A DNA stretch of 36,412 nt from an uncultured Pseudomonadota bacterium (lineage in GTDB: Bacteria; Myxococcota_A; UBA796; SXON01): assembly GCA_903921785.1 (NCBI GenBank), contig CAIXRH010000214.1:1-36412 (forward strand), read 5' to 3'. Positions within the stretch are counted from its first letter, which is position 1. Every line of letters begins with the position of its first letter. Under the pieces are notes generated by a model. It ran no database searches, was not told the origin of the DNA, and worked only from the letters and a program-made list of their open reading frames with translations. The translations under genes and the position numbers were made by a program. This document shows positions 2,076 through 17,445 of this stretch, one piece after another.

Positions 2076-3547
2076 TACCGGTAGTTCGTGTGGTACGCGC
2101 TGATGGTGAGGTTGCCCGACGCGTCGAGCCCCTGCACGACCGAGTAGTACTCGCCCTCGTAGTACCCGTAGTAGCCCCAGCTGTACCCGCCGCTGCCGGT
2201 GACATCCATCTCCAGCCCGACGGTGGAGTAGTAGGGGGAGGCGGTGTACCCGGGGTCGTCGAGCTGGGCGATGAACCGCCCCATACGCGAGTCGTAGGCG
2301 GCCCCGCCGGTGCTGTCCTTGCTCATGTCGGCGCAGCCGGTGACCGTGGTCGACGCCGCGGCGTCGTAGGTGTAGTCGGCGTCGAAGGAATAGTCGCAGC
2401 CGCGGCAGACGGTCTTGTCTTCCGTCGCGACGAGGCTCCAGTAGATGTCGCACTGGTTGCTGGCGCTCCCAGTGTTGGAGAACAGCACCCACTCCGCGGT
2501 GCCGGTGCCAGCGTGGACCCCGGCGCTGTCCGTCGTCACCGTCATGTCCACGCGGGACGTGACCCGGAAGCCGCTGGGCGCGGAAATCTCCACCGCGGCC
2601 GACATCGCGGTGGTGCTCGTCGTCCCGTCGCTCACCGTGGCTTCGCACTCCCACTGCTCGCCCACCGTCGTGAAGTCGGCGGTGACGGTGTCGGTGTCCC
2701 CAACCTCGGTCGCGGCCACGCCGTCGCGATACCAGAGGTACGACTTGGTGACCTTGCCGCCGTCCGGGTCCTTGGCGGTGACCTTGCAGGTGAGGTCGTT
2801 GTTGTCCTTCGGGGTCGTCGGGCTGATCTCCACCGCGGTGATCTCCGGCGCGCTGTTCGGCACGGTGACCGAGGCCTCCACCGAGATCGGCTCGCTGTCG
2901 TTGTCGGTGACGGTGACCACGACCTGGAAGGTGTCCCCCCCGTCCACGTACATCCCGTCGATCGTGGTGCGGCCGTCCCAGCTCGAATTGTGGGTGCCGT
3001 TCTCGGACCAGACGATGGTCTGGTCGAGCGTGTCGCCGTTGGGATCGCTCGCGGGCGTGTCGAAGACCAGGGTGAGGCCGTCCCCACTCACGGGCGCGAC
3101 GGGGTCCAGGTGGATCGTCGGCGCCACCGGGGGGAGGTCCGCGATCGTGGCCGAGGCCGTTCCCGCCGGCCCCTCCAGCTCGCGGTCGGAGGCGTAGACG
3201 TTGAGCGTCCAGACGTCCCCGAGGGTGGTGATCTCGGAGAGCACGAAGTCGTTGGTCTCCCCCGCGACGACGGCGCCGTTCTGGAGCCACTCGTAGCGGT
3301 AGGTGAGCGCGTCGCCGTCGGGGTCGACCGCCCCGACGTCCATCGAAGCGCGGAGCGTGGTGTCGTCGCCCGGGGTGGCCGGGGTGATGGAGACGGTGGG
3401 GGCGCCGGGCGCGCCGTTGAGGGCGGCGCTGTCGCCGGTGTCGGCGCTGGTGTCGCCACCGCTGGTGTCGAGGTCCGTGTCGGTGGAGGTGCCGGTGTCG
3501 GTCGCGACGGGGCATCCCAGGAGCAGCAACAGAGGGAGGTGGCGCAT
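2069..3547 (-). CDS. Lipoprotein with PKD/Ig-like repeats
   Basis: 492 residues. A very short lipoprotein signal (MRHLPLLLLLGC) puts the lipid-attached cysteine at position 12. It is followed by an Asp/Thr/Ser/Gly-rich linker of about 30 residues, a style common in myxobacterial surface lipoproteins. Three tandem beta-sandwich repeats of about 90-100 residues follow, each with DPDGD-like or DPNGD-like calcium or turn motifs and tyrosine-rich strands, as in PKD or Ig-like domains. The last 150 residues are a Tyr/Ser/Gly-rich domain with several cysteines. Probable surface-exposed adhesion or binding protein. It is the last gene of a minus-strand operon, 32 bases after the DUF1207-like gene. 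Its 3' end overlaps bioD by 7 bases. The exact binding partner is unknown. Confidence 0.75.
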   Translation of the reverse strand: MRHLPLLLLLGCPVATDTGTSTDTDLDTSGGDTSADTGDSAALNGAPGAPTVSITPATPGDDTTLRASMDVGAVDPDGDALTYRYEWLQNGAVVAGETNDFVLSEITTLGDVWTLNVYASDRELEGPAGTASATIADLPPVAPTIHLDPVAPVSGDGLTLVFDTPASDPNGDTLDQTIVWSENGTHNSSWDGRTTIDGMYVDGGDTFQVVVTVTDNDSEPISVEASVTVPNSAPEITAVEISPTTPKDNNDLTCKVTAKDPDGGKVTKSYLWYRDGVAATEVGDTDTVTADFTTVGEQWECEATVSDGTTSTTAMSAAVEISAPSGFRVTSRVDMTVTTDSAGVHAGTGTAEWVLFSNTGSASNQCDIYWSLVATEDKTVCRGCDYSFDADYTYDAAASTTVTGCADMSKDSTGGAAYDSRMGRFIAQLDDPGYTASPYYSTVGLEMDVTGSGGYSWGYYGYYEGEYYSVVQGLDASGNLTISAYHTNYRYY

Positions 3548-3579
3548 GGCCGTGGTGTACCCGAGGACCGGGCGGGCGT

Positions 3580-4353
3580 CTACGGCGGATTCACGCCGCC
3601 GGGGATCGTCACCCGCCCGTTGACGTCGAAGCCGAAGCTCACCCCCAACCAGTCGTCGTTCCCCACGAGTTTTCCGGTGTCGTCGGGGCCGTGGTGACCG
3701 GCCACGGCGACGCGGAGCCGCTGGCCGTCCCGGAACACGAGCCGCACGCCCGCCTGACCGGCGACGGCCGGCGTCCAGGCGAATTCGTCGGCGACCTGGA
3801 GGTCTACCGCCGCGTAGGGAGCGACCCTCCAGGGCCCTTCCACCTCGCCGCCCAGCTGCACGCCGAACGGCGGTGCGCCCCGCTGGTCGTGGATCAGCGC
3901 GTGTCCACCCACGTAGAGCCGCGCCGGGCCGAGCTGCCGGCTGCCGATCACGCTCAGCCACTCCCGGCTGTATCCATCCGGGGAACCAGGTAGGGTGGCC
4001 CCGCCCCGCACGCCGTCGGCGAAGTGGGCGCTGGTGTGGGCAAGCTCGAGGCGGCCCGACCACGGGCCGGACTGGACGGCGAGCGGGATGCCGAACGTGC
4101 CATCCACCGTGACCAGGTCGAAGCGGAGGTTGTCCTCGGGGTCAAAACCCATCCACACCCCGGCTTCGATGCCGAGGTCCGCGTGGAGCTCGCCGAGGGT
4201 GAGCGCGAGGAGGGGGAAGTTCTCGGCGATCGCGGCGTCGACCTTGAAGTGATCGTCCCAGCGGAGGGTCACGGACGAGAGCGCGGCCCGCGGGTCGGCC
4301 ACGGGGAGCACGAACACGCCGGTCGCAGGGAGGAGGACCCAGGCGGCGGGCAT
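3580..4353 (-). CDS. DUF1207-like outer-membrane protein
   Basis: 257 residues starting at the ATG at 4353; the frame is open further upstream but overlaps the response regulator. The N-terminal hydrophobic stretch looks like a weak export signal. The body has the alternating pattern of a beta-barrel, with phrases resembling DUF1207 proteins: LGIEAGVWMGFD, then IPLAVQSGPWSGRLELAHTSAHF, YSREWLSVI, and RLYVGGHALIHD. DUF1207 proteins are uncharacterised, probably outer-membrane barrels. It starts 4 bases after the regulator stop and ends 32 bases before the lipoprotein, so the three form an operon. Family assignment is from remembered pattern only. Confidence 0.6.
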   Translation of the reverse strand: MPAAWVLLPATGVFVLPVADPRAALSSVTLRWDDHFKVDAAIAENFPLLALTLGELHADLGIEAGVWMGFDPEDNLRFDLVTVDGTFGIPLAVQSGPWSGRLELAHTSAHFADGVRGGATLPGSPDGYSREWLSVIGSRQLGPARLYVGGHALIHDQRGAPPFGVQLGGEVEGPWRVAPYAAVDLQVADEFAWTPAVAGQAGVRLVFRDGQRLRVAVAGHHGPDDTGKLVGNDDWLGVSFGFDVNGRVTIPGGVNPP

Positions 4354-4357
4354 CGCC

Positions 4358-5032
4358 TCAGAAGCCGCCGCGCCGGAGGGCACGTTCCGTGGCCAGCACG
4401 TAGGGCGTGACCCGGGGCACCGGCGGCTGCACCCGGAGCAGATGGTCGCCGGGGAGGCGCCATTCTTGGACTTCCCCGCTCCGGGTGCCGAGCTGCACCA
4501 GGGGCGTGCCGCCCCGGGAGATCTCCACGTAGGAGACGCCCTCCATCGCCGCCACCGTGTCAACCAGGACACCGGTGAGCGCCAGGGCGGTGGCACGATC
4601 GTTCGCCACCTCGGCCGCTTCGAAGAACTCCACCGCACGGGCGATGGCCGCCGTGTCCCGCTGCTGCTGCGCCCGGGTGACCGCGCCTTCCAGGAGGGTG
4701 TAGAGGTCCCGCAGCTTGAACGGCTTGAGCACGAAGTCGGCCGCCCCGAGGCGGAGGGCGCGCACGACACCCTCCACGGTGGCGTAGCCGGTCATCACCA
4801 CGCCCGGCACCGCGGGGAGGCGCCGCGCAGCGTGGCGGACCAGCTCGAGGCCCTCCACGTCGGGCAGCTTCAGATCGGTGAGCATCACGTCGTAGCGGCC
4901 CGCCGCGAGCAGGGCGCGGGCCTCGCGGCCGTCTCGCGCGACATCGACCGACCAGCCCCGCCCGCGGAGGTATTCGGCGACCAGCTCGTGGATGGAGACC
5001 TCGTCGTCGACGACGAGGATGTGCGTGGGCAT
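4358..5032 (-). CDS. Response regulator with receiver domain and unknown output region
   Basis: 224 residues. Residues 1-120 are a CheY-like receiver: acidic pocket D9-D10, phospho-acceptor D53 in the phrase MLTDLKLPD, Thr in VVMTGYAT, and the conserved lysine in VLKPFK. After an alpha-helical linker (about 115-140) the last 85 residues show neither a DNA-binding helix-turn-helix nor GGDEF, EAL or AAA motifs. They look like a small alpha/beta module or degenerate GAF-like fold. It is the first gene of the minus-strand operon with the DUF1207-like and PKD lipoproteins. Its start is 45 bases from the divergent coiled-coil gene. No partner histidine kinase is nearby. Confidence 0.8.
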   Translation of the reverse strand: MPTHILVVDDEVSIHELVAEYLRGRGWSVDVARDGREARALLAAGRYDVMLTDLKLPDVEGLELVRHAARRLPAVPGVVMTGYATVEGVVRALRLGAADFVLKPFKLRDLYTLLEGAVTRAQQQRDTAAIARAVEFFEAAEVANDRATALALTGVLVDTVAAMEGVSYVEISRGGTPLVQLGTRSGEVQEWRLPGDHLLRVQPPVPRVTPYVLATERALRRGGF

Positions 5033-5077
5033 CGCGGCGGCCTCTGCCGCATGGTATTCCTTGGCGCGGGAGTCGGC

Positions 5078-5701
5078 ATGGCGCGCATCGAACGGATGGA
5101 CCAGGGCCTCCGAGGTCGGCTCGACGAGCTGGAGCAGAAGATGTTCCTGCTCAAGATCAACTACGAGAAGTACTTCTCGGGGATCGACCGGGTGGAACCG
5201 TATCGGGACCGGGAGGAGGTCAAGCGCATGGTGCGCGACCTCGCCGAGGAAGGGATCAAGAACGCCACCCAGGCCTTCAAGTTCCAAGGACTCAAGGCGA
5301 GGTTCCAGACCTACGAGCTCTACTGGACGCGCAACCAGAAGATGATGGAAGAGGGCACTCACCCGAAGCTGCGGGCGCGCGTGGATCGAAAAGTTGCCGC
5401 CACGGCCGCGGCCGCCCCGCCGATCGATCCCCGCGAAGCCGAGCAGCAGAAGGTGCTCGAAGAGCGCGCCGCGCGGATGGAGCGCGAAGAGCGCGCGTAC
5501 AAGTTGGTGTACGACAAGTACATGGAAGCGCGCGGCAAGTGCGGCCAGTCCACCGACATCAGCTTCGACGCGGTGCGGGAGGCGCTCACCAAGCAGGTGC
5601 GGCAGATCAAGAGCACCTTCAACGTGGAGAGCGTGAAGTTCCGCATCGTGGTGGAAGATGGCAAGGCCAAGGTGAAGGCGGTCCCTCAAGCCGCCACGTA
5701 G
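5078..5701 (+). CDS. Conserved hypothetical coiled-coil protein
   Basis: 207 residues, highly charged, no signal or membrane segment. Residues 5-95 and 110-150 are helical with heptad-like spacing (DELEQKMFLLKINYEKYF; REAEQQKVLEERAARMEREE), interrupted by an Ala/Pro linker near residue 105. The C-terminal 60 residues (from CGQSTDISFDA to the end) look like a compact alpha/beta module ending in an amphipathic strand VKFRIVVEDGKAKVKAVP. The ATG at 5078 was chosen because GGGAG lies 6 bases upstream; another ATG at 5051 would add 9 residues with poor ribosome binding. Function unknown; I recognise the style as a cytoplasmic protein of myxobacteria-like genomes but no named family. Confidence 0.65.
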   Translation: MARIERMDQGLRGRLDELEQKMFLLKINYEKYFSGIDRVEPYRDREEVKRMVRDLAEEGIKNATQAFKFQGLKARFQTYELYWTRNQKMMEEGTHPKLRARVDRKVAATAAAAPPIDPREAEQQKVLEERAARMEREERAYKLVYDKYMEARGKCGQSTDISFDAVREALTKQVRQIKSTFNVESVKFRIVVEDGKAKVKAVPQAAT

Positions 5702-9143: not shown

Positions 9144-10235
9144 ATGTCGCTGCGCATCCACGAGCTGCTGAAGTTTGCCATCGAGCGCGGGGCGAGCGAC
9201 ATCCACGTCGCCGCCGGCGAGAAGCCCGCGGTGCGGAGGGACGGCGAGATCATCCGGTTGGACGTGCCTCCGCTCACGCCAGACGACGCCAAGCGCCTCG
9301 CCTGGTCGATGATGCCCGAGAAGCAGCGGGTCGCGTTCGAGAACAACCTCGAGACCGACTTCGCCATCGCCTTCAAGGGCCTCGCCCGCTTCCGCGTGAA
9401 CGTCTTCACCCAGACGCGGGGCATCGGCGTGGCGATGCGGCAGATCCCCACCCGCATCCTCTCCATGGACGAGCTCGGGCTCCCGCCCGTCTTCCACCGG
9501 ATGGCGAGCTTCAAGCGGGGGCTGGTGCTGCTCACCGGGCCCACCGGCTCGGGAAAGTCCACCACGCTGGCCGCGATCATCGACTGGATCAACCGCAACC
9601 GCGCCGAGCACATCCTCACGATCGAGGACCCCATCGAGTTCGTGCACCCGCCGCAGCGGTGCCTGGTGAACCAGCGGGAGGTCGGCACGGACACCAAGAG
9701 CTTCTCGGCGGCGCTCCGCAGCGCGCTCCGCGAGGACCCCGACGTGATCCTGGTCGGCGAGATGCGCGACCTGGAGACGATCAGCCTCGCCATCTCCGCC
9801 GCGGAGACCGGTCACCTGGTCTTCGGGACGCTCCACACCAACTCCGCTCCCGAGACGGTGGACCGGCTCATCGACGCGTTCCCCCACGAAGCCCAGCAGC
9901 AGATCCGCACGATGCTCTCGAGCTCGCTGATGGCGGTGGTCACCCAGGCGCTCATCAAGAAGGCGTTCGAGCCCGGCCGAGTGGCGGCGCAGGAGATCAT
10001 GATCGTCAACGCGGCGATCCGAAACCTGATCCGCGAGAACAAGCTGTACCAGATTCCCAGCATGCTCCAGGCGGGGCGCTCGGAGGGGCAGCAGACGATG
10101 GGGATGGCGGTGAAGGACCTCGCGCTCAAGAAGAAGATCACCCGCGAACACGCGATGCAGATCGCCAACGACCCCAAGCTGTTCGACGACGTCGTGGCGG
10201 GCGCCATGCCGCCGCGACCCGGGGCGCCGCGATGA
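9144..10235 (+). CDS. pilT: Twitching-motility retraction ATPase PilT
   Basis: 363-residue hexameric ATPase of the type II/IV secretion ATPase family that powers depolymerisation of type IV pili at the inner membrane. Walker A is G132-P-T-G-S-G-K138-S-T, and the Asp and His boxes (TIEDPIEF; GHLVFGTLHTN) are present. The phrase AAIRNLIRENK is the AIRNLIRE signature that separates PilT from assembly ATPases such as PilB. Length is normal for PilT. A GGAG lies 7 bases before the ATG. The gene opens the long plus-strand run that continues into the Tad cluster, and its last 4 bases overlap thiS (ATGA). This retraction motor is next to Tad genes rather than pilB or pilC. Confidence 0.92.
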   Translation: MSLRIHELLKFAIERGASDIHVAAGEKPAVRRDGEIIRLDVPPLTPDDAKRLAWSMMPEKQRVAFENNLETDFAIAFKGLARFRVNVFTQTRGIGVAMRQIPTRILSMDELGLPPVFHRMASFKRGLVLLTGPTGSGKSTTLAAIIDWINRNRAEHILTIEDPIEFVHPPQRCLVNQREVGTDTKSFSAALRSALREDPDVILVGEMRDLETISLAISAAETGHLVFGTLHTNSAPETVDRLIDAFPHEAQQQIRTMLSSSLMAVVTQALIKKAFEPGRVAAQEIMIVNAAIRNLIRENKLYQIPSMLQAGRSEGQQTMGMAVKDLALKKKITREHAMQIANDPKLFDDVVAGAMPPRPGAPR

Positions 10236-10432
10236 AGGCGACGGTCAACGGCGAGGCCCGGCAGGTCGAGGAAGGGACGACGCTCCGCGCGCTGGTCGAG
10301 GCCCTCGGGCTGCACCCCGGCGCCGTGGCGGTGGCCGTGAACGGGGAAGTTGTGCCGCGAGCGGAGCACGCGGGCCGGACCGTGGGGGAGGGGGACCGGG
10401 TCGAGGTGATCCGCGCCGTAGGCGGCGGGTGA
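10232..10432 (+). CDS. thiS: ThiS-like sulfur-carrier protein
   Basis: 66 residues with a ubiquitin-like beta-grasp pattern: MKATVNGEARQVEEGTTLRA at the start, internal VAVAVNGEVVPR, and the obligatory C-terminal Gly-Gly, which is adenylated and turned into a thiocarboxylate to deliver sulfur to the thiazole of thiamine. Size is that of ThiS; MoaD is longer. No thiG, thiF or thiH is in the window. The start codon lies inside the pilT stop (ATGA) and the Tad pilins follow 25 bases later, an unusual place for a thiamine gene. Confidence 0.8.
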   Translation: MKATVNGEARQVEEGTTLRALVEALGLHPGAVAVAVNGEVVPRAEHAGRTVGEGDRVEVIRAVGGG

Positions 10433-10457: not shown

Positions 10458-10643
10458 GTGCGCCACGGCCAGTCCACCGTCGAGACCATGCTGGCGATCA
10501 CCGCCGTGGTGTTCGGGCTGCTCTGCGTATGCTGGTTCGAGATGGAGCCGCTGCTCGCCCTCGTCAACGTCGTCGCGGAGCAGATCCAGGCCTCCTCGTG
10601 GTTCGATCGGGTCGCGGCCTTCCTCTCCGGCTCCGATGTCTAG
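10458..10643 (+). CDS. Flp-type mini-pilin 1
   Basis: 61 residues from a GTG start. The leader is only MRHG, followed by QSTVETMLAITAVVFGLLCVCWFEME. The Gly before the cut, Glu at mature position 5 and a hydrophobic helix of about 18 residues are the hallmarks of a class III (Flp/Tad) prepilin processed by a CpaA/TadV peptidase. Two cysteines (LLCVCW) lie inside the helix, a feature the other two pilins lack. The ribosome-binding site is weak. It overlaps the next pilin gene by 8 bases. Could be the major pilin or a minor one; sequence alone does not decide. Confidence 0.7.
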   Translation: MRHGQSTVETMLAITAVVFGLLCVCWFEMEPLLALVNVVAEQIQASSWFDRVAAFLSGSDV

Positions 10644-10788
10644 CCGTCGTGGCCAGTCCATCGTCGAGTACGTGCTCGCGGTGAGCGTACTGGTGATCGG
10701 CCTCGCGGCGGCGTGGACGATGTTCGCCGAGGGCGTCGCCGGCGGGTTCGACACGGTGCGGCGCACCGTTCAGATGCCCTACCCGTAG
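10636..10788 (+). CDS. Flp-type mini-pilin 2
   Basis: 50 residues starting at the ATG at 10636, inside the end of the previous pilin gene. The leader MSSRRG is followed by QSIVEYVLAVSVLVIGLAAAW: cleavage after Gly, Glu at mature position 5 and Tyr at 6, the classic Flp E-Y pair. The mature protein would be only 44 residues, extremely short, with a 20-residue tail after the helix ending in TVQMPYP. Closest of the three to the canonical Flp motif, so it may be the main subunit. The cpaA peptidase gene begins 4 bases after its stop. Confidence 0.7.
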   Translation: MSSRRGQSIVEYVLAVSVLVIGLAAAWTMFAEGVAGGFDTVRRTVQMPYP

Positions 10789-10792
10789 GCCC

Positions 10793-11290
10793 ATGAGCTG
10801 GGACGCCCGCGATCTCGTGCTCGCCGCGCTTTGCGCCGTCGCGGTGTACACCGACCTGCGTACCGGGAAGATCAAGAACTGGCTCACCTTCCCGGTGATG
10901 GTGGCGGGCATCGCGCTCGCCCCGGTGTGCCCCGGGCCGTGGTGGGGTGGCCTCGCCGGGCTCGGCGCCGCCTTCCTTGGCGGCGTGGTGTTCTGGAAGG
11001 TCATCCCCGCGCTCAAGCCGGGGGACGTGAAGATGCTCATGGCGGCGGGCGCGCTCATGGGCCCGCAAGGTGCGTTGCGCGCGATCCTGCTCTCGGCCAT
11101 CCTGTTCTTTCCGGTGGGCCTCGCGGTGCTCATCCTCCGCGGGCGGCTCGGCAACTTCTTCCGCATCGCCCGCGGCTACTTCCGCGACCCCACCAAGCAG
11201 GATCCGAACGCGACGCTGATCGTACACGCCCCGGTGATCGCCGCAGCAATTGTGGTGGCGCGACTACAATCCTGGCCGAAACTCTGGTAG
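10793..11290 (+). CDS. cpaA: Prepilin peptidase CpaA/TadV
   Basis: 165-residue membrane aspartic protease (A24 family) that removes the leader peptides of Flp pilins. It has several membrane segments and the two catalytic aspartates in their proper settings: D21 in VYTDLRTGKIKN and D78 in KPGDVKML (the GxGD-type loop). It lacks the N-terminal methyltransferase domain of PilD/GspO peptidases, as is usual for TadV/CpaA, so any N-methylation of pilins needs another enzyme. It sits between pilin 2 and pilin 3, which are its likely substrates. Confidence 0.85.
   Translation: MSWDARDLVLAALCAVAVYTDLRTGKIKNWLTFPVMVAGIALAPVCPGPWWGGLAGLGAAFLGGVVFWKVIPALKPGDVKMLMAAGALMGPQGALRAILLSAILFFPVGLAVLILRGRLGNFFRIARGYFRDPTKQDPNATLIVHAPVIAAAIVVARLQSWPKLW
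11265..11270 (+). promoter_or_regulatory. Possible -10 element before pilin 3
   Basis: TACAAT near the end of cpaA, 21 bases before the ATG of the third pilin, in a locally AT-richer patch. No convincing -35 hexamer lies 16-18 bases upstream. Flp pilin genes often have their own promoter, but this is only a candidate. Confidence 0.25.
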
Positions 11291-11291
11291 A

Positions 11292-11480
11292 ATGCCTCAG
11301 GTGAGGCGAGGCCAGTCCAACACCGAGTGGATGCTGCTCACCGCGGTGCTCGCGGTCGGGCTCGCGCTCGCGGCCTACGCGTTCGTCCCCGGCTTTCGCG
11401 ACGGGGTGAAGGGCCTCGCGGCCGACGCCACCGGGCTGTTCGAAGAGGGCACGCGGAACGGCACCGCCAACATGAGGTAG
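11292..11480 (+). CDS. Flp-type mini-pilin 3
   Basis: 62 residues with leader MPQVRRG, then QSNTEWMLLTAVLAVGLALAAYAFV. It shares with pilins 1 and 2 the R-x-G-Q-S..E processing motif (Gly before the cut, Glu at mature 5) and a single N-terminal helix, followed by a soluble tail of about 30 residues ending GTRNGTANMR. The gene begins 1 base after cpaA stops and ends 12 bases before cpaB. With three related but different pilin-like genes, at least one could be a minor pilin or tip protein. Confidence 0.7.
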   Translation: MPQVRRGQSNTEWMLLTAVLAVGLALAAYAFVPGFRDGVKGLAADATGLFEEGTRNGTANMR

Positions 11481-11492
11481 ACTGGCCCGCGC

Positions 11493-12326
11493 ATGAAGAA
11501 CGTCCGCGGACTGGTCCTCTCCCTGCTGGTGGCGCTGGTCGCCACCTTCGCCCAGTGCCGCTACGTGGCGTCGCGAGAGCAAGCGCTCTTGTACGACTCG
11601 GAGCCACTCACCACCCTGGTCGCCAACCGGGACATCGCCGCGCACGTGCGTCTCGACGAGACGATGGTCGACGAGGTGGAGGTGCCGCGCAAGTGGCAGC
11701 AACCCCACGCGCTGGTGCAGAAGGACGAGGTGATCGGGCAGATCGCCTCGGTGCCAATCTTCGCGGGCGAGCAGGTGGTGCAGACCAAGCTCGTCACCGC
11801 CGACGACGCGGGGCTCGCCTTCTACGTGCCGAAGGGCCAACGGGCGCTCGCCCTGGCGGTCGACGTGTTCAACGCCGTCGGTGGGCACATCAAGGCCGGA
11901 AACCACGTAGACATCCTCGGCAGCTTCGACTTCGGCACGGGAGAGAAGTCCGACCTGCGCACCATGACCGTCCTCCAGGACGTGCGCGTGCTCAGCGTGG
12001 TGGACGACATGGGCACCATCCGGGAGCGCGAAGTGCGCCCGGCGCCGGCCGCGGGCGAGCCGCCCAACCCCGACGACGCGCCGCCCACCCCGTCGGAGAC
12101 GCTCGCGTCGCAGGCCACGCTGACGGTGGCGGTCACGCCAGAGCAGGCGCAGCGGCTCACGATGGCGCAGGAGCTCGGGCACCTCACGTTCGTGCTGCGG
12201 CGGCTGTCGGAGTCGGAGGGCGAGGTCGAGCTCCAGCCCGCCACCATGCAGAGCACGCTCGGGATTCCGGAGCAGGTCCGTTACCGCAGCCGGCCGCAGT
12301 ACCGGCTCATCGAGGGGGGACAGTGA
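11493..12326 (+). CDS. cpaB: Flp pilus assembly protein CpaB/RcpC
   Basis: 277 residues: an N-terminal membrane segment (about 8-22), then a SAF-like domain (VANRDIAAHVRLDETMVDEVEVP, about 45-115) that in this family may touch peptidoglycan or the secretin. A C-terminal beta-rich region (about 120-250) contains a proline-rich insert at about 180-205. CpaB is a periplasmic protein needed for secretin gating and pilus assembly in Tad systems. It lies 12 bases after pilin 3, and its stop overlaps the GTG start of the secretin gene (GTGA). Confidence 0.85.
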   Translation: MKNVRGLVLSLLVALVATFAQCRYVASREQALLYDSEPLTTLVANRDIAAHVRLDETMVDEVEVPRKWQQPHALVQKDEVIGQIASVPIFAGEQVVQTKLVTADDAGLAFYVPKGQRALALAVDVFNAVGGHIKAGNHVDILGSFDFGTGEKSDLRTMTVLQDVRVLSVVDDMGTIREREVRPAPAAGEPPNPDDAPPTPSETLASQATLTVAVTPEQAQRLTMAQELGHLTFVLRRLSESEGEVELQPATMQSTLGIPEQVRYRSRPQYRLIEGGQ

Positions 12327-13741
12327 CCGTTCGCCGCGCCGTCGCCGCCTCCGCCTTCGTCTGCGCCGCGCTCATCGCCGCCCCGGTCTTCGCGGGAGAG
12401 GGCATCGGCGACCAGGTGGTGGTGATCAACAACCAGGTCGCGGTGGACGTGCCCTACGAATTCGGGGACGTGAGCGTCGGCAGCAGCGAGATCCTCAAGG
12501 TGGTGCCGATGCGGGAGGAGAAGCAGCTCCTCCTCGCCGGGCGGGACCTCGGCACGACCAACGTGATCGTCTACGACACCAAGGGCACCCGGCGGGACGA
12601 ATTCGAGATCACGGTCATCCCCGCCAACCTCGCGAAGGTGATGAAGAGCGTGCAGGTGCTGCTCGACGACATTGAGGGCCTGTCGTTCAAGATCATCAAC
12701 GATCACGTGTACATCCAGGGCGAGGTGAGCCTCGACGAGGAGCTGCGGCGGGTGCAGGACCTCGACGAGAAGGAGCCGCTCGTGGAGTCGATGGTCACCC
12801 TGTCCCCGGTGTCGCAGCGCCTGTTGGCCTCGATGATCGAGAAGGAGATCGCCACCCCCGGGGTGGACGTGCGGCTCATCGGCCGGAAGATCATGCTCGA
12901 AGGCGTGGTCCACAGCGACACGGCGAGCAAACGCGCCGAGGAGATCGCGAAGGCGTACTACCCCGACGTGGTCAACGTGCTCGAGGTGCGGCAGGTCGAC
13001 CGCGTACCCGGGGAAGCCCAGACCATCGTGCTCGTGGTCCACTTCGTGGAGCTCACCAAGTCGCTTGAGGACACCTGGGGCATCGAGTGGACGCCGCTCG
13101 CGGGTCCCGGCGTCACCTTCGAGCTCGGCTCCACCAACGACGGCTCCGGCTGGAGCGACGTCACCGGCGCGGCCACCGCCGAGATCAACGGACTGCTCCC
13201 CAAGCTCCAGGAGGCGCGCTCCACCGGGTACGTGCGCGTGCTGGAGAACCCCACCGTCTCCGTGAAGAGCGGCGAGACCGCCCACATCTTCTCGGGCACC
13301 AAGGTGCCGTTCGTCTTCAACGACAACGGGCAGAAGTCGGTCGACTTCGTGGACGTGGGCATCAAGCTCGACGTGACGCCCTACGCCGCCGGCTCCAACG
13401 TGGACATGCAGATGAAGGTGGAGGTCAGCTCGCTCGGGGAGGTGTCGTCCAGCGGCTACCAGAGCATCGACCAGTCGGAGATCAGCACGGCGCAGTTCTG
13501 CCGCGCCGGCGAGAGCATCGTCATCGGTGGGCTGGAGCGGGTGAGCGACCGGGTGAACTACAACAAGCTCCCCGACGGCGCGTCGTTGCCGGACGCGCTG
13601 TTCACCCTGTACCGATCCAAGGACTACAAGAAGTCCAAGTCCCAGTTCCTGGTCTTCGTGACGCCGCAGATCCACGAGTCGAGCACCACGGCGAACAAGG
13701 AGATCCAGGAGAAGTTCAACCTCACCGAGGTGCGGCAGTAG
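12323..13741 (+). CDS. cpaC: Tad secretin CpaC/RcpA
   Basis: 472 residues from a GTG start overlapping cpaB. A signal peptide is cut near PVFA-GEG. Residues 30-110 are the secretin N-terminal pilus-assembly domain (VVVINNQVAVDVPYEF... RDLGTTNVIVYD). A BON-like region (about 165-225) contains MLEGVVHSD, and the secretin beta domain fills 230-455 with VLENPTVSVKSGETA, VPFVF and the conserved end FLVFVTPQI. It forms the outer-membrane channel through which the Flp pilus leaves. Length is normal for CpaC. The next gene begins 1 base after the stop. Confidence 0.9.
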   Translation: MTVRRAVAASAFVCAALIAAPVFAGEGIGDQVVVINNQVAVDVPYEFGDVSVGSSEILKVVPMREEKQLLLAGRDLGTTNVIVYDTKGTRRDEFEITVIPANLAKVMKSVQVLLDDIEGLSFKIINDHVYIQGEVSLDEELRRVQDLDEKEPLVESMVTLSPVSQRLLASMIEKEIATPGVDVRLIGRKIMLEGVVHSDTASKRAEEIAKAYYPDVVNVLEVRQVDRVPGEAQTIVLVVHFVELTKSLEDTWGIEWTPLAGPGVTFELGSTNDGSGWSDVTGAATAEINGLLPKLQEARSTGYVRVLENPTVSVKSGETAHIFSGTKVPFVFNDNGQKSVDFVDVGIKLDVTPYAAGSNVDMQMKVEVSSLGEVSSSGYQSIDQSEISTAQFCRAGESIVIGGLERVSDRVNYNKLPDGASLPDALFTLYRSKDYKKSKSQFLVFVTPQIHESSTTANKEIQEKFNLTEVRQ

Positions 13742-13742
13742 C

Positions 13743-15938
13743 ATGGCCGCCCAGGTGCTCGTGGTCGGCGCGGCGCGCGACGGGGTGGGGAAGACCACCT
13801 TCGCGGTGAACGTGGCGTTGTCCCTCCTCAAGGAGACCCGGAAGCGGGTCCTGGTGGTGGACCTCGACGTCAACGGGGTGGGCGACGTGGCCACGCTCCT
13901 CGGCGTCACCGAAGCGAGGAGCATCGCCGACTTCATCCCGTACGTCGCGCAGCTCTCCGCGGAGACCATCGGGCCGTACATCCAGGCGCACGGCACCGGG
14001 ATCGGCGTGCTTCCGCTCGCCGCCACGCCCCAGGCCGCCGCCCGGATCGCGCCCGACGGGGTGGCGAAGGTGCTCGACCTCGTGGCGCCGCTCTGCGACT
14101 ACCTGGTGGTGGACGTGGGCGCGGGCGTGGACCCCGTGAGCGTCGTGGCCATGGAGCGCGCTGCGGGCATCTTCCTGCTCGTGGAGCCTTCGCCGACCGG
14201 CCTCGGCGCCGCCCGCCGCTTCAGCGACCACCTCCAGACGCTGCACTTCCCCCAGGCGCTGGTGAAGTTCGTGGTCAACGCCCACGACGCCGCGAGCGTG
14301 CTCACCCGCGAGGCCATCGCCGCTCGCCTCGGCCGCCCCGCGCTGGTGATCTTCCCCAAGGACGACACCCTCGCGCTCGACGCCGCGATCAAGGCCGCCC
14401 CCTTCGTGATGGACCAGCCGCGCGCCGCGCTCTCGCGGCTCTACGACGAGCTGGTGCGGCAGTTGGTGGAGAAGGGCGTGCTCGACCAGCTCGCCGCCGT
14501 GGAGCGCGGGCGGAACGTGGCGGTGGACGGGCGGCGGGTCGTGGAGGTCACTGAGGAGCAGGCCAAGGCGATCGAGGGCTACATGAAGTCCCGCGGCGGC
14601 GCGCGGGGCAAGGGCGGCCGCGAGCTCGACGCGCGGACGCGCCTGAAGATGCTCATCCACAAGCGGCTGCCCGAGGTGCTCGATCTCAAGCGCCTCGACC
14701 GGGAGATCGGCAGCAAGCCCGACAAGGACAAGCAGCTCCGCGAGCGGGCGGAGGTGGCGGTCGCCCGGGTGCTCGACGAAGAGGGCGCCAGCGTCACCGA
14801 CCGCGCCGAGCGCCGGCGGATCGTGAAGGAGGTCTGCGACGAAGCGCTCGGCCTCGGCCCCCTGGAGGACCTGCTGGCGGACGACCGGGTCACCGAGATC
14901 ATGGTGAACGGGCGGGACAACGTCTTCGCCGAGATCAGCGGGAAGCTCCGGCGCACCGAGTACAGCTTCACCGACGACGCGCAGCTCCTCGCGGTGATCG
15001 AGCGCATCGTCACCCCGCTCGGGCGGCGCATCGATGAGAAGTCCCCGATGGTCGACGCCCGCCTGCCCGACGGCAGCCGCGTCAACGCGATCATCCCGCC
15101 GCTGGCGATCGACGGCCCCTCCATCACCATCCGGAAGTTCGCCCGGGAGCCCCTCGGCGTCGCCGACCTCGTGCGGTTCGGCAGCCTCACCCCCGAGCTC
15201 GCGGACCTGCTGCGCGCCTGCGTTCAGGCCCGCCTCAACATCGTGATCTCCGGCGGCACCGGCTCCGGCAAGACCACGCTGCTCAACGTGCTCTCCAGCT
15301 TCATCCCGGAAGACGATCGCATCGTCACCATCGAGGACGCGGCCGAGCTCCAGCTCCGCCAACCGCACATCGTGCGGCTGGAGTCTCGTCCGGCGAACAT
15401 CGAGGGCGTGGGCGAGGTCAAGATCCGCGACCTGGTGAAGAACTCCCTGCGCATGCGGCCCGACCGCATCGTCGTCGGGGAGTGTCGCGGGGCCGAGGCG
15501 GTGGACATGCTCCAGGCGATGAACACCGGTCACGACGGCTCGCTCACCACGGTGCACGCCAACTCCGCACGCGACGCGCTCGCCCGACTGGAGACCTTGG
15601 TGATGTTCGCCGGTCTCGACCTGCCTTCCCGAGCCATTCGCGAGCAGATCGCCAGCGCCATCCACATCCTGGTGCAGGTCACCCGGCTCACGGACGGCAG
15701 CCGGCGCATCATCAGCGTGTGCGAAGTCTCGGGGATGGAAGCGCAGACCATCACCCTGCAGGAGGTCTTCGCGTTCAAGCAGACGGGCGTCGACGCGAAC
15801 CGGAAGGTGCTCGGCACCTTCGGCCCCACCGGGTTCATCCCCAAGTTCGTGTCGAAGCTCGGGGAGATGGGCATCGAGGTTCCTCGCGGGATGTTCGCGG
15901 CGCCGGGGCAGGGCACCATCCCCCGCGGGCGCGCCTGA
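13743..15938 (+). CDS. Fused TadZ/CpaE-like and TadA/CpaF ATPase
   Basis: 731 residues holding two machines normally made as separate proteins. Residues 1-260 are a MinD/ParA-like domain of the CpaE/TadZ type. Its P-loop is [11 protein letters not shown], with Arg where the signature lysine of deviant Walker A motifs usually sits, followed by [10 protein letters not shown]. CpaE localises the Tad machine to a cell site. Residues 300-690 are a complete TadA/CpaF secretion ATPase, with [19 protein letters not shown], Walker A G504-G-T-G-S-G-K510-[12 protein letters not shown] and TTVHANS. There is no internal stop, and the linker at 260-300 is Gly/Arg-rich. It is preceded by cpaC and overlaps tadB by one base. 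The fusion would tie positioning to the motor one-to-one. Confidence 0.9.
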
Positions 15939-16873
15939 TGGAGTTCTTCCCCGCCTGGTGGGACGGCCTCACCCTGCTGCGGCTCGGCGCGCTCGGCGTC
16001 GCGGTCGTCGCATGGCTCGCGGTCGGATGGTTCGCCGCGCCGCGGCTCTGGGCGTTCTTCGATGAGATCACCCTCGGCTACGTCCGCTGGATGCAGGCCG
16101 AGTTCGACCGGATGTACCTGGAGGTCTCCACGCAGCTCTGCCTCGCGAGCATCGTGAGCAGCGTGGTCGTCTTCGCTGCCCTGGGCTTCTTCCTCACCAG
16201 CGGGCTGCCCTGGGAGGGCGGCTACCACCTCATCCGGGCGCTGGTCGTGGGCGTGCTGGTGGCGGGTCCCTTCGGCCTGCCCACCGGCTACCGGCTCCCC
16301 CGCGCGGTGGTGGAGTGGATGTGGCGGCGGCGCATCGAGAAGTTCGAGGACCAGCTCCTCGACGCCCTGGCGTTCATGTCCAACGGGCTGAAGTCCGGGT
16401 TGTCCCTGCTTCAGAGCATGGACATGGTGCGGCAGGAGCTGCCGAACCCCATCGCCGAGGAGTTCGCCCTCACGCTGAACCAGCAGCGCCTCGGGATGCC
16501 CCTGGAAGATGCGCTGCTCGGCCTGGAGAAGCGGATCGGCACGGAGGACGTGCAGATCATCGTCACCAGCATCAACATCCTCCGGCAGTCGGGCGGCAAC
16601 CTCGCCGAGACGTTCGACACGGTCGCCCACACCATCCGGGAACGGAAAAAGGTCTCGGGGAAGGTGAAGTCGTTGACCGCGCAGGGCGAGGCGCAGGGGC
16701 TCATCATCACCGTGATGCCGTTCGTGCTCGCGGCGGCGTTGTGGGTCATCGACCCCGTGCTCATCTCGCGGCTGTGGACCACGGCCCTGGGATGGGGGCT
16801 GATCTTCTTCATGCTCACCTTGCAGGTGATCGGCGGGATGATGATCCGGCGGATCGTGAAGGTGGAGGTCTGA
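15938..16873 (+). CDS. tadB: Tad inner-membrane platform protein TadB
   Basis: 311 residues of the type II secretion F-domain family. Two membrane segments lie near 15-35 and 70-90, and another close pair near 95-115. The F domain at about 130-270 contains FEDQLLDALAFMSNGLKSGLSLLQSM and GGNLAETFDTVAHTIRER, both typical of TadB/GspF proteins, and final membrane helices lie at about 255-305. It works with TadA to move pilin subunits. The start overlaps the ATPase stop (TGATG), and its stop overlaps the following methyltransferase-like gene the same way. The usual partner TadC does not follow. Confidence 0.88.
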   Translation: MEFFPAWWDGLTLLRLGALGVAVVAWLAVGWFAAPRLWAFFDEITLGYVRWMQAEFDRMYLEVSTQLCLASIVSSVVVFAALGFFLTSGLPWEGGYHLIRALVVGVLVAGPFGLPTGYRLPRAVVEWMWRRRIEKFEDQLLDALAFMSNGLKSGLSLLQSMDMVRQELPNPIAEEFALTLNQQRLGMPLEDALLGLEKRIGTEDVQIIVTSINILRQSGGNLAETFDTVAHTIRERKKVSGKVKSLTAQGEAQGLIITVMPFVLAAALWVIDPVLISRLWTTALGWGLIFFMLTLQVIGGMMIRRIVKVEV

Positions 16874-17445
16874 TGGCCTGGTTGGTGTACGGGTTGCACG
16901 CGCTTTTCTGGGCGCCATTCCTCGTCCGGGGCCAGCTCGACAAACGCTCGGGCACCGCGCAGACCGGCCCCGAGGCGCACCGGAGCCCGGGAGCCACCGC
17001 GCTGGTCTGGGCCCACTCCCTGGCGTTCGGCGTGACCTACTTCGGCATCGGCTGGGGCGCCTTCGGCGGTCCGCTCTGGCCACTTCCCATGCCCGTCCGG
17101 CTCCTCGGCGTCCCGATCGTTATCGGCACAACCTGGATGATCATCCGGGTGATGATGGTCTTCCGGAGCTGGCGCCTGCGGGCGGCGCTCCAGTCCGACC
17201 ACCAGCTCTGCACCGAGGGGCCGTTCCGCGTGGTGCGCCACCCGATCTACACCGGCCTGGTACTGCTCACCTTCGCGAGCTTCCTCCTGGTCCCCAACGT
17301 GCTCACCGCGATCGGGGTGATCACCAATTTCCTGGCCGGAGATGTCCGTGCGCGCACGGAGGAGAAGCTGTTGGCCGGGGTGTTTGGGGACCGGTATACC
17401 GCGTATATGGCCCGAACGAAGCGGTTCCTGCCCGGCGTGTACTGA
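16873..17445 (+). CDS. Isoprenylcysteine carboxyl methyltransferase-like membrane protein
   Basis: 190 residues with about four membrane helices and the C-terminal signature of the ICMT/PEMT methyltransferase family: GPFRVVRHPIYTG (about 117-129), then R-x-EEKLLAGVFGDRYTAYMARTKRFLPG at the end. Such proteins bind S-adenosylmethionine at the membrane and methylate a C-terminal carboxylate, a lipid or other small group. It overlaps tadB by one base, so it is surely coexpressed with the Tad genes and occupies the place where tadC is normally found. Possible targets are the Flp pilins or a lipid; this is inference. Confidence 0.75.
   Translation: MAWLVYGLHALFWAPFLVRGQLDKRSGTAQTGPEAHRSPGATALVWAHSLAFGVTYFGIGWGAFGGPLWPLPMPVRLLGVPIVIGTTWMIIRVMMVFRSWRLRAALQSDHQLCTEGPFRVVRHPIYTGLVLLTFASFLLVPNVLTAIGVITNFLAGDVRARTEEKLLAGVFGDRYTAYMARTKRFLPGVY

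Follow-up and report, generated by a model that had tools for sequence, protein, structure and literature searches.

In the well-studied Tad systems of Caulobacter and Aggregatibacter, the ATPases CpaE/TadZ and CpaF/TadA are separate proteins. The archaellum likewise combines a motor with a second ATPase; its hexameric motor FlaI, a member of the same superfamily, works with FlaH, a separate RecA-like protein that is neither MinD-like nor fused to the motor. In Caulobacter crescentus, where both Tad ATPases belong to the Tad operon, CpaE carries a receiver (REC) domain, and six CpaE dimers have been fitted around the CpaF hexamer, with the receiver domains proposed as the likely contact between dimers (PMC13170226). 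What is understood of TadZ/CpaE action on the Tad motor, and of the ratio between the two, rests mainly on that one cryo-tomography fit. Yen et al. (2025) divided 292 CpaF orthologues into three classes, with no extension, a disordered extension, or an FHA domain plus a disordered region, all of which share a three-helix bundle, an N-terminal domain and the ATPase core (PMC12019362). KilF of Myxococcus xanthus, an FHA–CpaF fusion, falls in the FHA type (PMC8460266).

The window analyzed here (36,412 nucleotides) is contig C214 of a 7.5 Mb genome in 362 contigs, and it contains a 731-aa frame at 13743-15938 on the plus strand, running uninterrupted from ATG to TGA with no internal stop. A first-pass annotation had read this frame as a MinD-like ATPase coupled to a secretion ATPase, two proteins that Caulobacter and Aggregatibacter keep separate, and both parts of that reading were borne out. 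Residues 3-243 matched MinD/ParA models (TIGR01969, E 2.5e-16; PF01656, E 5e-9), and residues 333-666 matched TadA/VirB11-like motors; within them, 333-660 gave 223 bits for T2SSE (PF00437) and 358 bits for TIGR03819 (TadA), the latter slightly below the curated cut-off of 373.15. In a phmmer search of the PDB, the ParA-family ATPase 3ea0 aligned to residues 9-233 and CpaF to residues 330-712 (E 1e-123). The AlphaFold2 model, a monomer built on 64 alignment rows, had a mean pLDDT of 88 and a pTM of 0.70, with pLDDT below 50 confined to residues 256-265 and the C-terminus. By fold comparison, its TadZ half matched 3ea0 (Z 30), FleN and MinD (Z 30 to 25), and its TadA half matched CpaF (8rjf/9e24; Z 36, 48% identity over residues 296-722); archaellum FlaI was also among the matches.

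The head (residues 1-240; 13743-14462) is a TadZ/CpaE ATPase, with a MinD/ParA fold and a deviant Walker A, that lacks the N-terminal receiver region of ordinary TadZ. It is followed by a linker (residues 241-296; 14463-14630) that in the model comprises the end of the TadZ C-terminal helix, the disordered stretch at 256-265 and a helix at 271-283. Helix 229-243, assessed as a candidate for the TadZ C-terminal amphipathic membrane helix, had a moderate predicted hydrophobic moment of ca. 0.5. The remainder (residues 297-731; 14631-15935) holds the three-helix bundle, N-terminal domain and ATPase domain that correspond to CpaF; its T2SSE core with Walker A and its TadA-type sequence identify it as the TadA/CpaF motor, and almost all positions of the Walker motif (residues 504-512; 15252-15278) were invariant across the fused family. 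None of the three published CpaF classes has an N-terminal TadZ, and judged by domain content the TadZ-headed motor represents a fourth N-terminal CpaF architecture beside them (PMC12019362). No report of such a motor was found in the open-access literature searched, a body that leaves most subscription papers outside.

The genes around the fusion lie on the same strand. Upstream are a tadV/cpaA prepilin peptidase (10793-11290; PF01478), cpaB/rcpC (11493-12326; PF16976) and a cpaC/rcpA secretin (12323-13741; PF00263 and PF13629), and downstream is tadB with one T2SSF domain (15938-16873; PF00482). The co-occurrence of prepilin peptidase, CpaB, secretin, motor and TadB marks the operon, by family assignment, as a Tad locus. 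Three short pilin-like ORFs carrying GQSxxE were recognized by motif, A (10458-10643, GQSTVE), B (10636-10788, GQSIVEY, the best conserved of the three) and C (11292-11480, GQSNTEW), and none of them matched a Pfam family above cut-off. In some members of the genus, a ThiS-family sulfur-carrier gene (10232-10432; TIGR01683, 74 bits) separates pilT from the pilin-like genes. PilT and ThiS were rejected as parts of the system, being neighbors in part of the genus alone; because PilT orthologues sit elsewhere in other fused genomes, PilT is a mere neighbor. An ICMT-like methyltransferase gene (16873-17445), which shares one base with the end of tadB, was likewise rejected, as it was not found at the aligned position in relatives.

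TadC was missing from the operon on C214. The TadC of the fused system was found instead on a second contig of the same genome (locus G000:C94), beside an FHA/transmembrane protein, and TadE was found on neither C214 nor C94. An extra single-T2SSF gene was present elsewhere in 9 of the 10 fused genomes inventoried, the exception being G014, a genome 89% complete in which no TadC was found. Overall, a remote TadC occurred in 20/21 fused genomes versus 1/72 without the fusion (Fisher p 4e-18 when counted by genome; counted by genus it is 4e-8, the fairer figure because related genomes are not independent). The TadC platform protein of the fused Tad system is thus remotely encoded and co-inherited with the fusion. 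In the Acidobacteriota fused loci L067 and L069, tadC adjoins tadB, and L067 additionally carries an FHA/transmembrane homologue.

Unfused TadZ proteins are about 400 aa long and mostly have ca. 130-190 residues (around 140) ahead of the ATPase domain. The fused TadZ starts at the ATPase domain with residue 1, and an N-terminal atypical receiver domain was not found in it. The missing stretch would be the receiver domain, as indicated by its length, the start of the family match and the published TadZ/CpaE architecture (PMC13170226). Short separate TadZ frames were also seen at L158 and L162 (256 and 289 aa), indicating that the N-terminal loss also happens without fusion.

The deviant Walker motif of the head (residues 9-19; 13767-13799) contains RDGVGKTT, in which Arg12 stands where the signature lysine is expected. 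The first-pass annotation had given this P-loop correctly and had taken it as a hint that this half might lack the MinD-type switch. That suggestion found no support in sequence, because the arginine is specific to one lineage and the Walker-A Lys/Arg is kept. Of the 18 fused Myxococcota sequences, 17 had arginine at the signature position, and lysine occupied it in the Acidobacteriota and Desulfobulbus-labeled ones; by this distribution, the loss of the signature lysine is a change of the Myxococcota lineage, not a property of the fusion as such. Across ordinary TadZ, the signature lysine is mostly kept and the Walker-A lysine mostly lost. The Walker-A position of fused TadZ keeps Lys or Arg, mostly Lys.

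Every one of the 11 genomes of the genus has the fusion, as do several other genera within the same family, order and class, but others lack it. The reading that it is the standard form of every Tad locus in the clade was rejected on evidence from the host genome itself, in which contig C243 carries separate, adjacent tadZ and tadA genes and contig C106 a further Tad locus with a TadZ-like match ahead of TadA. The phylum names used for relatives are taken from the titles of public records, and some of these titles are plainly wrong; for example, MAGs titled Klebsiella pneumoniae (L049, L056 and L060) carry a Myxococcota-type locus. On one Acidobacteria MAG contig (L068), tadZ-tadA fusion genes occur twice, about 9 kb from each other (3514-5658 and 12541-14646).

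Trees of both halves, a check that the first-pass annotation had proposed, fitted one ancient fusion. In the TadZ tree, one side of a branch with support of 99/98 consisted of 23 fused sequences (Myxococcota, Acidobacteriota and one Desulfobulbus-labeled contig), and a fused Bacillota MAG fell outside that grouping. The TadA tree was compatible and recovered the same fused grouping, weakly supported at 55/86. Forcing the Bacillota MAG into one clade with every other fused form gave p-AU 0.041; this arrangement was rejected, with a caution about long branches, and the Bacillota fusion is therefore probably separate. One ancient fusion with a likely second in the Bacillota MAG is the simplest reading of these trees.

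We consider it likely that this gene product is the only motor of a Tad (type IVc) pilus, and that in it a receiver-less TadZ is tethered to TadA with six TadZ per hexamer and the tether replaces the receiver contacts. The TadZ head, stripped of the receiver region, would be tied through the short linker to TadA's three-helix bundle, and the TadA part would assemble, as usual, into a hexameric rotary motor that extends and retracts the pilus. With TadA as a hexamer and both domains on one chain, each motor would carry six TadZ domains (the predicted model itself being a monomer), and these probably pair in an ATP-dependent manner as three dimers. The tether would take the place of the receiver-domain contacts proposed to join the separate CpaE ring, so that positioning and motor assembly would become one step. 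The 1:1 hexameric TadZ:TadA complex suggested in the first-pass annotation is a reasonable expectation from this arrangement. Compared with Caulobacter, where separate proteins are modeled as six dimers per hexamer (PMC13170226), the fusion is one chain without the N-terminal region and 1:1 by construction. Twelve TadZ per hexamer would be impossible for such a chain unless free TadZ joins, and TadZ from the other Tad loci of the genome may add to the fused motor. More tentatively, the fusion could mark a deep-branching Tad subtype common to Myxococcota and Acidobacteriota, in which TadZ is fixed at six copies per hexamer and the receiver is unneeded, so that the six-dimer CpaE ring would not be universal; this is possible, although we would not lean on it. 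The natural fusion sets a 1:1 ratio and drops the receiver-bearing N-terminal region, so what ratio, receiver domain and ATP cycling each contribute could be tested separately in one protein.

An assembly or sequencing error that merged two neighboring genes could in principle produce such a frame, as tadZ and tadA are neighbors in ordinary loci, separated at the junction by one to three in-frame stops. The unbroken frame, however, recurred in 21 of 93 related genomes (3 of the 21 ending at a contig edge), in MAGs of Acidobacteriota and on two isolated MAG contigs; the MAGs that share it are independent, come from many studies and span at least two phyla. In a second collection of 79 loci, it was unbroken in 25, including a few cut by contig ends, while 51 had one to three junction stops and 3 had a match to the TadA half only. 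The N-terminal region was gone from every fused form. Between close relatives, dN/dS of the TadA half was 0.08-0.24; that of the TadZ half, which evolves faster, was about 0.17-0.42 in 6 of 7 close-relative pairs and 0.65 in the most distant pair. Both halves are under purifying selection. Given the recurrence in independent assemblies and dN/dS below 1, an origin by sequencing error, which the first-pass annotation had raised against its own reading, was rejected as vanishingly improbable. The join is a genuine inherited trait in a lineage of mostly uncultured bacteria, and it makes the published structural model directly testable. A single frame could still yield products that work as separate proteins, through internal initiation or proteolysis of the linker, in which case the join would be neutral. 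The linker is short and predicted to be disordered at 256-265, and in the window ATG281, with a GAGG-like site, would yield a product of 451 aa, an ordinary size for TadA. Many relatives, though, have CTC, CTG or CAG/CAA at that codon. The internal start is thus not conserved, and a conserved start yielding free TadA was rejected; with the frame also maintained over a deep phylogeny, separate action of the two halves seems improbable.

The tethered motor would work differently if the TadZ half had degenerated into a structural or membrane adaptor and ceased to cycle on ATP, leaving positioning to the FHA/transmembrane partner. The arginine in place of the signature lysine in nearly all Myxococcota members, the faster evolution of the TadZ half, and the FHA/transmembrane gene lying close to tadC in most second loci examined would all fit such a role. 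We nevertheless find it doubtful, as the Walker-A Lys/Arg, Walker-B Asp124, Gly16 and Asn23 are conserved throughout the fused set, and the change from lysine to arginine is conservative and lineage-specific. The same FHA/transmembrane partner, together with the split locus and its remote TadC, recalls the Kil apparatus of M. xanthus, which is encoded in two gene clusters with many FHA proteins and has a motor with an extra N-terminal domain (PMC8460266), and in the TadA tree the fused motors grouped with FHA-headed motors (83/93). By analogy, these traits are at most suggestive of a Kil-type apparatus that would kill prey on contact, a predatory role that the first-pass annotation had thought possible. 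The head domain of KilF is FHA, and that FHA–CpaF architecture was not found here, where TadZ takes its place; the KilC secretin is reported to be short and without N0, whereas the secretin of this locus has a pilus-N-terminal domain. The organisms with the fused system are uncultured, and a killing role has been demonstrated for Kil only, and we regard a predatory function of this kind as quite unlikely for the tethered motor. Several Myxococcota loci (L127, 2526-3722; L128, 2712-3902; L130, L134 and L138) have a second, divergent TadA-like ATPase of about 400 aa near an FHA-headed motor, in contrast to Kil, which has been described with a single ATPase.
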